Positions 35,916 through 57,158 of a stretch of 64,000 nt of DNA are shown piece by piece. The position numbers were made by a program, and so were the translations under genes. Origin of the DNA: Telmatospirillum sp. (GTDB lineage: Bacteria > Pseudomonadota > Alphaproteobacteria > CACIAM-22H2); contig JADCGL010000003.1 in assembly GCA_020248985.1 (NCBI GenBank), forward strand, positions 124,001-188,000. Direction: 5' to 3'. Numbering within the stretch: the first letter of the stretch is position 1; each line of letters starts with the position of its first letter. The notes beneath the pieces were generated by a model. That model searched no databases. It saw only the letters and a list, made by a program, of their open reading frames with translations, and was not told the origin of the DNA.

Positions 35916-36539
35916 ATGCAGAACAAATCGCCAAATCCGCGCCGCGCCAGCGCCAGCCGCACGACCAAGGAAACCCAGATCGAAACCACGATCGATCTGG
36001 ACGGGTCGGGCGTCTACGACGTTGCGACCGGCATCGGCTTTCTCGACCACATGGTCGAGCAGCTGTCGCGCCACTCGCTGATCGACATCAAACTGCGCGC
36101 CAAGGGCGATCTGCATATCGATTTCCACCACACGACCGAGGATTGCGGCATCGTGCTGGGCGAAGCCGTGGCGAAGGCCTTGGGCAATCGCACCGGCATC
36201 GTGCGCTACGGCGAAGCGACGATTCCGATGGACGAGACGCTGACCCGCGTCGCCCTCGACGCCTCGAACCGGCCGTATTTGATCTGGAAGGTCGCCTTCT
36301 CGCGCCCCAAGCTCGGCGACATGGACACCGAACTTTTCAAGGAATGGTTCCAGGCCTTCGCGCAATCGGCCGGCCTCACGCTGCACGTCGAAAATCTCTA
36401 CGGCGAGAACAACCACCACATCGTCGAATCCTGCTTCAAGGCGCTGGCCCGTGCCTTGCGCACCGCGATCGCGATCGATCCGCGCAAGGCCGATGCCGTG
36501 CCCTCGACGAAGGGCGTGCTCGGCAGCGGCTCGGCCTGA
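35916..36539 (+). CDS. hisB: Imidazoleglycerol-phosphate dehydratase
   Basis: 207 residues, monofunctional HisB. Sixth step of histidine synthesis, dehydrating IGP with two Mn ions. Metal-binding motifs: [19 protein letters not shown] (in part, about 39), [14 protein letters not shown] (about 71), [19 protein letters not shown] (about 168). First gene of hisB-DUF2628-hisH-hisA-hisF-hisE, all closely spaced, divergent from hslVU. Confidence 0.97.
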
Positions 36540-36545
36540 AACGCC

Positions 36546-36929
36546 ATGGCGGCCAAATTCTACACCGTGCATTTTTCGCCGTTCGGGTCCGGCCCCGACC
36601 GCGATGCGCGCTTCGTCAAAGACGGATTCAGCTGGGTCGCCTTCGTGTTCGGCCCGTTCTGGGCCTTCTACCATCGGCTGTGGTTTGCCGGCTTGATGCT
36701 GGTGGCGGCCCTCGCTGCCTTGGCCGTCGCCGGCGAGTATTTCGTGCTCGATCCGGCCGCCGACGCGGCCCTCGGCCTTGCGATCTCGCTGCTGATCGGC
36801 TTCGAAGGCCCGGAGCTTCTGCGCAAGAAGCTCGAGCGCCGCGGCATGCCCGAACGCGGGCTCGCCTGCGGGCGCAATCTCGCCGAGGCCGAGCGCGATT
36901 GGTTCCGTCGCCACCGCGCCACGCCATGA
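36546..36929 (+). CDS. DUF2628 small membrane protein in the his operon
   Basis: 127 residues with the DUF2628 look: FVKDGFSWVAFVFGPFWAFY near 24-43 and then two or three membrane helices (LWFAGLMLVAALAALAVAG, ALGLAISLLIGFEG). Function unknown. Alphaproteobacterial his operons often carry it between hisB and hisH, as here. It starts 6 bp after the hisB stop, and its stop overlaps the hisH ATG as ATGA. Confidence 0.9.
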   Translation: MAAKFYTVHFSPFGSGPDRDARFVKDGFSWVAFVFGPFWAFYHRLWFAGLMLVAALAALAVAGEYFVLDPAADAALGLAISLLIGFEGPELLRKKLERRGMPERGLACGRNLAEAERDWFRRHRATP

Positions 36930-37555
36930 AAATCGCGATCGTCGATTACGGGGCGGGCAATCTGCGCTCCGCCGCCAAGGCCTTTGGCCATGTCGCCGGC
37001 GCGTCTGCGACCGTGGACGTCACCTCCGACCCCGAAGCCGTGCGCAAGGCCGACCGCATCGTGGTGCCCGGCCAGGGTGCGTTCGGCGATTGCGCTGCAG
37101 GTTTGCGCGCCGTGCCCGGTATGGTCGACGCCCTCGAAGAAGCCGTGCATCGCCGCGCCGTGCCCTTGTTCGGCATCTGCGTGGGCATGCAGCTCTTCGC
37201 GACGCAAGGCTTTGAACACGGGACCCATGCCGGCCTCGGCTGGATCGCGGGCGATGTGCGCCGGATGACACCCGCCGACCCGGCCTTGAAGCTGCCGCAG
37301 CTCGGCTGGAATGGGTTGGCTTGCAAGCCGCATCCGCTGGTCAAGGATTGGCCGGCAGAGCCCCATGTCTATTTTGCCAACAGCTACTGCTTCGAACCGC
37401 TGGACCGGTCGTGCGTGGTTGCAACAGCCGATTACGGCGGACCCGTCGTGGCGCTGGTGGCGAAGGACAATATCGCCGGTTCGCAATTCCACCCGGAGAA
37501 GAGCCAGGCGGTGGGGCTGCAGCTGATCGCGAATTTCCTGGCGTGGCGGCCATGA
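36926..37555 (+). CDS. hisH: Imidazole glycerol phosphate synthase, glutaminase subunit HisH
   Basis: 209 residues, class I glutamine amidotransferase feeding ammonia to His[17 protein letters not shown] at the N-terminus, oxyanion strand VPGQGAF, nucleophile elbow [10 protein letters not shown] with the catalytic Cys (about 84), and the His/Glu pair in SQFHPEKSQ near 190. The ATG overlaps the preceding stop, and the hisH stop overlaps hisA. Confidence 0.97.
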
Positions 37556-38277
37556 TCCTGTTCCCGGCCATCGACCTCAAAGACGGGGCCTGCGTGCGGC
37601 TGCTGCGCGGGGCGATGGAACACGCGACCGTGTTCAACACCGACCCGGCTGCCCAGGCAGCCGTCTTCGAAGCGGCCGGCTGCCGCTGGCTGCATCTCGT
37701 CGATCTCGACGGGGCGTTCGCCGGCCAGTCCAAAAACGGGGCGGCTGTCCAAGCGATCCTCAAACGTGTGAAAGTGCCTGCCCAGCTCGGCGGCGGCATT
37801 CGAACGGCCGAACACATCCGCACCTGGCTCGAAGCCGGCATTGCCCGCGTGATCCTCGGCACGGTTGCCCTGCGCGATCCCGCCCTCGTCAAACAAGCCT
37901 GCAAGGATTGGCCGGGCCGCATCGTGGTCGGCATTGATGCGCGCGACGGCCGGGTTGCCGTTGAAGGCTGGGCCGAAACCTCGGACGTGACGGCGCTCGA
38001 TCTTGCCCGCCGATTCGTCGACGCCGGTGTGGCCGCGATCGTCTATACCGACATCGACCGCGACGGCGCCATGCAAGGCCCCAATGTGGACGCCACGGCT
38101 GCGTTGGCCAGGGCCGTGCCCATCCCGATCATTGCTTCGGGCGGCGTTTCTTCGCTTGCCGACCTTGCGGCCTTGAAGGCCCGTGCCGCCGATGGCATTG
38201 CCGGCGCGATCTCGGGCCGAGCCCTCTACGACGGCCGCATCGATCTGGCCGAAGCCATTCGGCTCTTGGAGGCGTGA
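37552..38277 (+). CDS. hisA: ProFAR isomerase (phosphoribosylformimino-AICAR-P isomerase)
   Basis: 241 residues, TIM barrel. Opens and isomerises the ribose of ProFAR (Amadori rearrangement). [12 protein letters not shown] (about 6) has the first catalytic Asp, [15 protein letters not shown] (about 163) the second, and phosphate-binding loops are QLGGGIRT and ASGGVSS. The start overlaps the hisH stop as ATGA. The C-terminal half resembles HisF by ancient duplication. Confidence 0.97.
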
Positions 38278-39071
38278 TGCTGAAAGTCCGCATCATCCCG
38301 TGTCTCGACGTCAAAGATGGCCGCGTGGTCAAGGGCGTCAATTTCGTCGATCTGATCGACGCGGGCGACCCGGTCGAAGCCGCTGCCGCCTACGATGCAG
38401 CCGGGGCCGACGAGCTCTGCTTTCTCGACATCACCGCGAGCCACGAAAACCGCGAGACGATCTACGACGTCGTGGCGCGAACGGCAGCCCGCTGCTTCAT
38501 GCCGCTCACCGTCGGCGGCGGCGTGCGCACGGTGGACGACATCCGCAAGCTCTTGCTGGCGGGTGCGGACAAGGCCTCGATCAACACGGCGGCGGTCAAC
38601 CGGCCCGAGTTCGTGCGCGAGGCGGCCGAGAAATTCGGCAGCCAATGCGTGACCGTGGCGGTCGATGCCAAACGCGTCGGCCCGGATCGGTTCGAAGTCT
38701 TCACCCATGGCGGGCGCAACGCGACGGGCCTCGAAGCCGTGGCCTGGGCAAGGCGTATGGCCGAATTGGGTGCGGGCGAGATTCTTCTCACCTCGATGGA
38801 CCGCGACGGCACCAAGGCCGGTTTCGACATCGAACTCACGCGCGCCGTGGCCGATGCGGTTCCGATCCCGGTCATCGCGTCGGGCGGTGTGGGTACGCTC
38901 GACCATTTCGCCGCCGGCATTCGCGACGGCCATGCGGCGGCCGTGCTCGCGGCCTCCGTGTTCCATTTCGGCACGTTCAGCGTCGGCCAAGTGAAGGCGC
39001 ATCTGGCGGCGGCGGGCATTGCGGTTCGCCCTTTCCAAGCCGGCAAGCCTCTGCCAGAATCGGCGCCATGA
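38277..39071 (+). CDS. hisF: Imidazole glycerol phosphate synthase, cyclase subunit HisF
   Basis: 264 residues, TIM barrel that combines PRFAR with ammonia from HisH to give IGP and [23 protein letters not shown] (about 5-22) with catalytic Asp, [12 protein letters not shown], and [15 protein letters not shown] (about 170) with the second Asp. The ATG at 38277 shares a base with the hisA stop (TGATG) and has GGAGG upstream; an in-frame GTG one codon earlier is possible. Confidence 0.97.
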
Positions 39072-39427
39072 TCGACGAAGCCAAACCCGCCTCGACCGAC
39101 GCCGTGCTCGAACGCCTGTTCCAGACGATCGAACAGCGGCGCTATGCCGACCCAACGACTTCGCACACCGCCAAGCTGTTCCAGAAGGGCACCAAGAAGA
39201 TCGCCCAGAAGGTCGGCGAGGAAGCGGTCGAAGTGGTCATCGAAGCCGTGCGCGACAACCGCAAACGGCTGATCGAGGAAAGCGCCGACCTCATGTACCA
39301 TCTGCTGGTGCTGTGGGCCGACATGAAGGTCGTTCCGGGCGAAGTGTGGACCGAGTTGGCGCGCCGCGAAGGCATGTCCGGCGTCGACGAAAAAGCCAAT
39401 CGCGACCCGGCCAAATCGGACTCCTGA
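39068..39427 (+). CDS. hisE: Phosphoribosyl-ATP pyrophosphatase
   Basis: 119 residues, MazG-like helical fold. Hydrolyses PR-ATP to PR-AMP, second step of histidine synthesis. [20 protein letters not shown] (about 40-59) with metal-binding Glu residues and [16 protein letters not shown] match HisE. The start overlaps hisF by ATGA. HisI, the next enzyme, is not in the window. Last his gene of the operon; a HIT protein gene follows after 18 bp. Confidence 0.96.
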
Positions 39428-39445
39428 GACGCAGGAAATATCGCG

Positions 39446-39811
39446 ATGGCCTACGATCCCAACAACGTGTTCGCCCGTATCCTGCGCGGCGAGATCCCGT
39501 GCAAGAAAGTGTACGAAAACGAATTCGTGCTGGCCTTCCACGACATCGCCCCGCAAGCGCCCGTGCATGTGCTGGTGATCCCGAAGGGCCCCTACGTGTC
39601 GATGGACGATTTCACGGCCGATGCCCCGGCCGACATGCAGGCGGGTTTTCTCAAAGCGATCGGCGACGTCGCCCGCCTGCTCGGCATCGCCGCCGACGGC
39701 TATCGCGTCCTCAGCAATTGCGGCGTCAACGGCCACCAGGACGTGCCGCATCTGCATTTCCACATTTTCGGCGGCGCCAAGCTCGGCCGTATGATCGGCA
39801 AGTCGAGCTGA
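39446..39811 (+). CDS. HIT-family (HinT-like) nucleotide hydrolase
   Basis: 121 residues. The histidine-triad motif VPHLHFHIFGG near 100-110 carries the nucleophilic His of purine nucleoside phosphoramidases. FARILRGEIPCKKVYENE at the N-terminus is typical of HinT. Probable substrate class: AMP-lysine or AMP-N type phosphoramidates. An AGGAA site precedes the ATG, and the gene likely ends the his transcript. Confidence 0.93.
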   Translation: MAYDPNNVFARILRGEIPCKKVYENEFVLAFHDIAPQAPVHVLVIPKGPYVSMDDFTADAPADMQAGFLKAIGDVARLLGIAADGYRVLSNCGVNGHQDVPHLHFHIFGGAKLGRMIGKSS

Positions 39812-39852
39812 TTTTTGTCTTGGCACACCGTTCGCGGCCGCCGTTAACCCTG

Positions 39853-39918
39853 CGCGACATCGACGCGACATCTGTGCGCTGTCTATGCGACAGGAACGCG
39901 ACATAGGCGCAACGTCTT
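39853..39918. repeat. Array of six degenerate 11-bp tandem repeats
   Basis: Starting at 39853, six consecutive 11-bp units follow with no gap (39853, 39864, 39875, 39886, 39897, 39908). Units 1, 2 and 5 share the exact core CGCGACAT; unit 4 has TGCGACAG, unit 6 CGCAACGT, and unit 3 is the most diverged (TGCGCTGT). The rest of each unit, three bases, varies. Eleven bp is about one helical turn, so equal faces of each core would point the same way, as in iterons or cooperative operator arrays. The array lies in the non-coding gap between convergent HIT and yifB genes. Confidence 0.75.
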
Positions 39919-40062
39919 TTGCCGTTAAGTATTTGTTTTTATTGGAAACATCGCACGGTTCGCGCAGTTTTTCGGCACGTCGCGCGCCGCACCCCAATAT
40001 TCACTTTTCAAACAGCACAGATGGCCCGAGCATAAGCAATCCTATATAGGACATTATCACAT

Positions 40063-40114: not shown

Positions 40115-41644
40115 CTACCGCGTCAGTTGCACACGGCGATAGCCGAGCGCCTCGGCGATGTGGGCGCGGGTCGGCACGTTGATCGCTTCAAGGTCGGCCA
40201 ACGTGCGTGCCACGCGCATCACGCGGTGATAGCCGCGCGCGGAGAGCTTCATGCGTTCGGCGGCTTCGTCGAGCAGCTTGCGGCCGGCGGGCTCGGGGGC
40301 GGCGAGCGCTTCGAGCGCTTGGCCGTCGAGCTCGGCATTGCTGCGCGGGCGATTGGTCGGTGGGAGTGACTCAAAGCGCGTGCGTTGACGCGCGCGTGCG
40401 GCGGCCACGCGCTTGGCCACATCGGCCGAGCCTTCGGCCGGCGGGGGGAGCGACAAATCGCCGGCGCGCACGGGCGGCACATCGACATGGAGGTCGATGC
40501 GGTCGAAGAGCGGTCCCGAGATCTTGGTTTGGTATTCGACGGCGCATTTGGGCGCGCGCCCGCAGGCCTGGCCCGGATCGTCGAGATAGCCGCAGCGGCA
40601 CGGGTTCATTGCAGCCACGAGCTGCACGCGGGCGGGATAGCTCACATGGGCGGCCGCGCGCGCGACGACAGCACGCCCGGTTTCGAGCGGCTGGCGCAAA
40701 GCTTCGAGTGCGCCGCGTTGGAATTCCGGCAGCTCGTCCAAAAACAGCACGCCCAAATGCGCAAGGCTCACTTCGCCGGGCTTGGCACGCGGCCCGCCGC
40801 CGATCAGCGCCACTTGGCTCGCCGTATGGTGCGGGTCGCGATAGGGGCGCTGGCGGCTGATGCGCCCGCCTGCGAGGAGGCCGGCCACCGACTGCACCAT
40901 CGACACTTCGAGCGCTTCTTGCGAGCTCAGCTCCGGCAGCAAACCCGGCAAGCAGCGCGCCAGCATCGATTTGCCCGCCCCGGGCGGGCCCACCATCAGC
41001 AAATTATGGCCACCGGCCGCCGTCACTTCGAGCGCGCGCTTGGCCGTCTCCTGGCCTTTGACGTCTTTGAGGTCGTAGCCGCTCGTTTGCGTCAGCGCCA
41101 AGCGCGGCTGCGGGGCGGCGAGCAACTGCGCACCCTTGAAATGGTTGAGGAGGGCCAGCAGCGTGGGGGCCGCGACGATTTCGAAGCTGCGCGCATCGCC
41201 CGCCCATGCCGCCTCGCCGCCGCACGCTTCGGGGCACACGAGGCCGCGCGCCTGCGCGATCGCCGCCATTGCGGCCAGCAGCACGCCGGGGACGGCCAAA
41301 ATGCGCGCATCGAGCGTGAGCTCGCCCAGCACCACATAGCGCTCGACGAGCTCGCCCGGCACCACGCCCATCGCCACGAGCAGGCCAAGGGCGATCGGCA
41401 GATCGAAATGGGCACCCTCTTTGGCGAGGTCGGCGGGTGCGAGATTGACCGTGATGCGCCGCCCGGGCAGCGACAGGCCGATCGCGGCCAGGGCCGCGCG
41501 CACGCGCTCTTTGCTTTCTTTGACGGCGTTGTCGGGCAGGCCGACGACGGCGAAGGCGGGCGCACCCGACGCCACCTGGACCTGCACGTCGACCGGGATT
41601 GTCTCGATGCCGCTGAAAGCGACCGTGGCGACGCGCGCAACCAT
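40115..41644 (-). CDS. YifB/ComM-family Mg-chelatase-like AAA+ ATPase
   Basis: 509 residues. N-terminal Lon-like domain (VEVQVASGAPAFAVVGLPD-type, VQVASGAPAFAVVGLPDNAV near 22-41), Walker A VGPPGAGKSMLARCLPGLL (about 217), Walker B VLFLDELPEF, then a four-Cys segment (NPCRCGYLDDPGQAC) and a Mg-chelatase C-terminal domain. ComM-type proteins are helicases promoting branch migration during natural transformation; many homologues are still called YifB. The ATG at 41644 gives the standard N-terminus. Confidence 0.94.
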   Translation of the reverse strand: MVARVATVAFSGIETIPVDVQVQVASGAPAFAVVGLPDNAVKESKERVRAALAAIGLSLPGRRITVNLAPADLAKEGAHFDLPIALGLLVAMGVVPGELVERYVVLGELTLDARILAVPGVLLAAMAAIAQARGLVCPEACGGEAAWAGDARSFEIVAAPTLLALLNHFKGAQLLAAPQPRLALTQTSGYDLKDVKGQETAKRALEVTAAGGHNLLMVGPPGAGKSMLARCLPGLLPELSSQEALEVSMVQSVAGLLAGGRISRQRPYRDPHHTASQVALIGGGPRAKPGEVSLAHLGVLFLDELPEFQRGALEALRQPLETGRAVVARAAAHVSYPARVQLVAAMNPCRCGYLDDPGQACGRAPKCAVEYQTKISGPLFDRIDLHVDVPPVRAGDLSLPPPAEGSADVAKRVAAARARQRTRFESLPPTNRPRSNAELDGQALEALAAPEPAGRKLLDEAAERMKLSARGYHRVMRVARTLADLEAINVPTRAHIAEALGYRRVQLTR

Positions 41645-57086: not shown

Positions 57087-57112
57087 CTTGAACCGAGGGG
57101 TTCGGCCGCGAT
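57087..57112 (+). promoter_or_regulatory. Candidate RpoH (sigma-32) promoter of dnaK
   Basis: CTTGAA at 57087-57092 is a perfect heat-shock -35. About 13 bp later CCGCGAT (57106-57112) is a poor match to the -10 consensus CCCCAT. It lies 67 bp before the dnaK start. Heat-shock control of dnaK by RpoH is the alphaproteobacterial norm, so this is plausible but only half supported. Confidence 0.35.
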
Positions 57113-57158
57113 GCCTCAGACGAGGGTCGGGCGCGAGCTGCCGCAAAGCGAGGGTCGC

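Follow-up and report, generated by a model that had tools for sequence, protein, structure and literature searches.

The boxA sequence is regarded mainly as a signal of rRNA operons, with few other targets per species. Multiple copies of one short motif within a short RNA characterise the sRNAs of the CsrB/RsmZ type. At the level of DNA, the Pho box recognised by PhoB consists of direct repeats of 11 bp, each made up of a 7-bp core and a 4-bp spacer; one or two pairs of repeats are usual in operators of the PhoB/OmpR type. The role of boxA in antitermination that protects against Rho is taken from E. coli, and the consensus GYTCTTTAANA is that of gamma-proteobacteria (PMC5725501). By its own statement, this survey of Nus targets in gamma-proteobacteria left non-coding RNAs out of consideration. 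A boxA in a CRISPR leader is the setting used in PMC7862264.

A stretch of 64,000 nucleotides from Telmatospirillum sp. (the window) contains an array of six 11-bp units in the gap of 303 bp between the end of a gene for a HIT-family protein (39811, + strand) and the end of a yifB-like gene (40115, - strand). The units lie exactly where a sequence-only reading of the window had placed them, within the intergenic gap, and the core CGCGACAT is, as claimed there, exact in three units, close in two and diverged in one. Their 11-bp phase was borne out by 2000 dinucleotide shuffles of the gap, none of which reached the period-11 column score or matched the score of the array at any period from 9 to 15. 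Tandem Repeats Finder did not detect the array, even at a score of 30, because the spacers are not repeated. The strongest tandem repeat that it reported in the window (57102-57157, 2.1 copies of a 25-bp unit) is unrelated to the array. Genes of histidine biosynthesis at 35916-39420 lead into the HIT gene; judged by their sequences, these are probably hisB, hisH, hisA, hisF and hisE. A minus-strand ORF of 511 amino acids (38462-39997) was taken as spurious, since it begins within the gap and is antisense to the HIT and his genes, and a coding function of the window copy was rejected. The coordinates of all features are given in Table 1.

Table 1. Genes and element components at the array locus, in coordinates of the window.
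Feature	Position	Strand	Remarks
Convergent HIT-family protein gene	39446..39811	+	Stop codon 41 bp from the array
Distal end block ATGTCGCGCAGGGTTAACG	39842..39860	-	Identical in all four species at the HIT locus
Putative transcript, approximately 200 nt	39845..40045	-	Both ends approximate
Array of six 11-bp units	39853..39918	-	Consensus YGCRACRTNNN on the + strand, NNNAYGTYGCR in the putative transcript
Units of the array, by first position			39853 CGCGACATCGA, 39864 CGCGACATCTG, 39875 TGCGCTGTCTA, 39886 TGCGACAGGAA, 39897 CGCGACATAGG, 39908 CGCAACGTCTT
TCAANNNNTTRA motif, here ACAAATACTTAA	39926..39937	-	From the alignment of copies
boxA GCTGTTTGAAAAGTGAA	40000..40016	-	One base from the 16S leader boxA GCTGTTTGACAAGTGAA
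Conserved promoter-like block GTGATAATGTCCTATATAGG	40041..40060	-	From the four-species alignment; possible -10 GATAAT at 40053-40058
yifB-like gene	40115..41644	-	Upstream, on the strand of the putative RNA

On the alignment of copies, the array forms the tail of a longer element on the minus strand, in which a -10-like block, boxA, the motif TCAANNNNTTRA and the array follow one another in that order. In most copies approximately 17-18 nt separate the motif from the first unit downstream of it, and the motif is also present in a sister family (family B, described below). At the end of the element away from the array, the conserved block of the aligned copies reads GYGCTGTTTGANNNNTGAA on the strand opposite to that of the alignment, and this block is the boxA. 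The earlier description of the array as lying away from promoters was wrong, as the -10-like block and the rRNA-type boxA are found approximately 80-200 nt away on the minus strand. A scan with the sigma-70 consensus returned no promoter in the gap and did not recognise the promoter-like block, and no intrinsic terminator, sought as a GC-rich hairpin with a T run, was found on the minus strand of the gap. In most arrays of this family (family A), the window array included, divergence is greatest in the fourth unit counted from the proximal end; the unit positions are therefore not equivalent.

At positions 2-3, GC is present without change in 340 of 342 units, and position 4 is nearly always G or A. 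This constancy bears on the proposal that the array is a Rho-utilisation (rut) site in the mRNA of the convergent gene, with six repeats matching the six subunits of Rho. The regular 11-nt spacing over 66-88 nt and the slight excess of C over G on the + strand would suit such a site, but Rho has little sequence specificity and on the strand of the putative transcript it is G that exceeds C, which makes this proposal very improbable.

The home genome (4.30 Mb) was scanned with the pattern GCGACATNNNNGCGACAT, allowing no more than one mismatch, with the reversed pattern as control. There were 39 matches as against none for the control, so the spaced core is distributed genome-wide far from randomly; a random frequency would have refuted the sequence-only reading, which thus survives this test. 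With a four-unit pattern and profile (R1) the matches resolved into 14 arrays, plus two borderline cases, and all 14 are of the form YGCRACRTNNN at an exact 11-bp phase. Three congeneric sister species (G002, G003 and G004) carry approximately 13-19 arrays each, and seven other genomes assigned to the genus gave no array or only borderline matches (E of approximately 0.003-0.009). An exact scan of 84,980 species, each represented by one genome, found repeated arrays in two MAGs only, JAIXXA01 (Rhodospirillaceae, from a pond) and CAMDLT01 (labelled Asaia bogorensis), together with single matches in unrelated phyla. No array was found when viral contigs were scanned with the exact pattern. Iterons of a plasmid or phage, which adjoin a replication initiator gene in the origin of the replicon, were rejected as an identity: the 14 sites are dispersed and chromosomal-looking, and lie by HIT, sigma-factor, PHB depolymerase and other genes.

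For 13 of the 14 home-genome arrays, the corresponding gene in G003 likewise has an array at its 3' end, and most have a counterpart in G004 too. Four species retain the element at the HIT locus, G004 among them despite a different next gene, which there is not yifB-like. The 11-bp phase is retained in the three relatives compared at this place, so that the sequence-only reading also survives its other refutation test, and the islands of conservation in the four-species alignment are the -10-like block, boxA, parts of the array and its distal end. The convergent genes share no common theme and include those for HIT, a sigma-70 factor, PHB depolymerase, a DUF882 peptidase, DUF1127 and a DRL oxidoreductase. 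The likeness of orthologous and paralogous arrays was 0.82 and 0.81 in the core and 0.41 and 0.41 in the spacer, where gain or loss of units could depress the values for orthologues through misregister. Between species the cores are thus kept and the spacers have diverged to the level of paralogues. Since orthologous arrays do not resemble one another more closely than paralogous arrays do, and the cores persist, the array core is most simply explained by continuing selection, and not by recent ancestry. An old dispersed repeat, REP- or MITE-like and without a function of its own, would also be multicopy, intergenic and lineage-restricted, but this is an improbable account of positions that are the same in three to four species, where core, phase and boxA are kept despite diverged spacers, and of one tail that stands behind different leaders (boxA or an ORF).

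The boxA of the elements is the motif present in the 16S rRNA leader of the home genome (locus L102), where GCACGCTGTTTGACAAGTGAATATGG lies upstream of AGAGTTTGATCCTGGCTCAG; while the window copy has one substitution, other copies are identical to the leader sequence. It occupies the same strand and the same order in 11 of the 14 home-genome arrays. Thirty-three boxA matches were examined (20 exact and two one-mismatch matches of a 17-mer, and 11 exact matches of an 18-mer), and these comprised 11 from family A, 21 from family B and the one 16S leader found. Every match examined other than this rRNA leader heads a small element with a repeat tail.

Among 52 distinct arrays from four species, 42 follow a boxA (41 standard and a single one-base variant, GTGCTGTTTGAAAAGTGCATA). 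The 10 arrays without boxA follow a start codon, the frame of which runs into the array, and they make up three orthologous groups. The first (L012) covers three species, in which a leaderless ATG at -117 directly follows the promoter and opens a frame of 84 amino acids through the array; at this same site the fourth species (G004) has a boxA instead. In the second (L045), also of three species, the start codon is at -76/-79 and has a Shine-Dalgarno sequence; in the third (L004), an ATG at -27 lies right at the stop codon of the upstream gene in four species. The repeat is poor in stop codons and some open frames through the array are expected by chance, therefore open frames alone mean little and it is the conserved starts that carry the argument.

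Because the orientation of the array relative to the boxA or start codon ahead of it never varies, it would appear to be the tail of a minus-strand transcription unit; the simplest reading is that transcription through it, on the strand of the boxA, must be protected from Rho, by Nus factors or by ribosomes, and the array would therefore be part of the transcript. The same constancy of orientation does not support the suggestion made from the window that the array is a stand-alone site for replication, segregation or chromosome organisation. Approximately 14 fixed, dispersed, conserved and helically phased sites might be expected of such a site (iteron, matS or parS-like), but such a function would not explain why the array is coupled without exception, and on one strand, to a boxA or start codon, and no clustering among the match positions was apparent by eye, so that we regard it as improbable. 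The same reading had held that the array is more than a simple operator, which stands. The operator of a PhoB/OmpR-type response regulator was considered in view of the tandem 11-bp direct repeats, whose 7-bp core and 4-bp spacer resemble the Pho box; the array differs from it in core sequence and in its position at gene 3' ends, approximately 84-180 nt downstream of boxA and not upstream of start codons, and has six to eight copies as opposed to one or two pairs. Such an operator is a highly improbable identity.

Family B consists of boxA-led elements of approximately 190 nt (loci L095-L125; e.g. G000:C10:146113-146304), with 23-25 profile matches in each of the four species. A promoter-like block and boxA are followed by TCAANGGNTTRA and then by GTYGC-type units at 10-nt steps, which sit in a palindromic AAATAGG...CCTATTT end. 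By eye, the promoter-like block of many copies is CTTGAA-N13-TATGCT, a spacing of the heat-shock type. In the stems of L112, L120, L317 and L330, inspection by eye revealed a paired change of AA/TT to CG/CG (GTAACC/GGTTAC to GTCGCC/GGCGAC) as well as changes of C-G to T-A, in some copies only. The home-genome copies without boxA include L236 and L237, whose 3' modules lie inside apparent coding frames, and L234, for which the frame was read by eye. Outside the home clade the picture is mixed, as not every copy of family B has a boxA or a clear start. The family is diverged in G006-G008 and was found in no other genus of the taxonomic family.

Neighbouring units neither covary nor pair, the values at distances 1-5 being equal to the shuffled null (z from 0.6 to -1.6), and RNAalifold returned almost no covariation; a stem between an upstream GCGAC and the first unit gave a z of approximately 1.9. 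Folding of the element as RNA is unremarkable (z of -0.24 in the window and a family mean of -1.2), and the z-scores had no strand preference. As the units are unpaired and the folds ordinary, single-stranded motifs read by a protein or a partner RNA are the best guess. Rfam 15 yielded no match above the gathering score for the window, and only one tRNA above it for 10 loci at E <= 1. Searches of papers, the reach of which excluded most subscription papers, likewise named no such family, in keeping with the prior remark that nothing known names this array.

The main rival explanation places the function of the array in DNA, as a roadblock or terminator. The phased GYRAC/GTYRC units would be bound by a protein along one face of the double helix, and the polymerase, made resistant to Rho through boxA, would be halted short of the convergent gene. 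The lack of pairing between units is compatible with this, as is the position of the array, which starts 0-75 nt past the convergent stop codon in 28 of the 33 copies examined. The 10- or 11-bp steps fit the helical turn of DNA as well, units occur in forward and reverse, and the palindromic end of family B occupies the same slot. However, some convergent genes have a terminator-like hairpin of their own before the array, translated copies would have no need of a roadblock, and in a sister genome the rrn operon, itself antiterminated, closes at its 5S/tRNA-Met end with an ordinary hairpin-T terminator and no array. The last observation also led us to reject the array as the terminator of rrn operons. 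A roadblock is unlikely, albeit less so than the other alternatives considered.

On balance, and with slightly better than an even chance, these elements constitute a multicopy family of transcripts, restricted to one lineage and protected from Rho, most of which are non-coding and which carry a multivalent binding array at the 3' end. Their architecture, orthology and conservation, the identity of boxA and the pattern of boxA or start codon are established from sequence. Transcription of the element is very likely, and protection of the transcript from Rho by boxA or by translation is likely; whether the array acts as RNA is evenly balanced, a role in RNA being favoured over a roadblock on DNA. 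RNA polymerase would start at the conserved promoter-like block and proceed along the minus strand (approximately 40045 to 39845). The rRNA-type boxA in the nascent RNA would load NusB/NusE and shield transcription from Rho, after which the polymerase would pass the TCAANNNNTTRA motif and transcribe the array. The evenly spaced AYGUYGCR motifs could then offer six to eight equal sites in the RNA to a protein or partner RNA, and the transcript would end at the stop codon of the convergent gene. The few copies lacking boxA would instead be shielded by translation into the array. More tentatively, the elements may represent a new class of bacterial transcript, comprising multicopy RNAs, non-coding or with a short ORF, for which the sole purpose of borrowing rRNA antitermination or translation is to carry a phased AYGUYGCR array at the 3' end as a multivalent scaffold or decoy for a lineage-specific RNA-binding protein. 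If transcribed, the elements would be a large undescribed RNA family in one bacterial group and, through the exchange of boxA and ORF at one orthologous site, a natural test of the need of non-coding transcripts for protection from Rho. The conserved tail could serve as bait for a candidate RNA- or DNA-binding protein.

Several known systems share part of this arrangement. The sibling sRNAs alpha-r8/SisA-D of Alphaproteobacteria similarly have several homologous RNA genes per genome, but number four copies as opposed to tens here, and no boxA or tandem tail is seen in the accessible part of their description (PMC12559287). CRISPR arrays with a boxA leader also place boxA ahead of a transcribed repeat array; a CRISPR array was rejected as an identity, as it needs repeats of approximately 23-47 nt with unique spacers of similar length, whereas the present units recur every 11 nt with spacers of 3 nt. 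In being short and repeating one brief motif many times, the RNA would by analogy resemble the protein-titrating sRNAs of the CsrB/RsmZ type, from which the elements differ in motif, regular 11-nt phase, copy number, the presence of boxA and the absence of a stem-loop display. A further correspondence is with the boxA of rRNA leaders and its NusB/NusE/SuhB antitermination, as in E. coli rrn and suhB: GCTGTTTGANA fits 9 of the 11 positions of GYTCTTTAANA, but unlike in those systems boxA here heads approximately 30 short elements with repeat tails.
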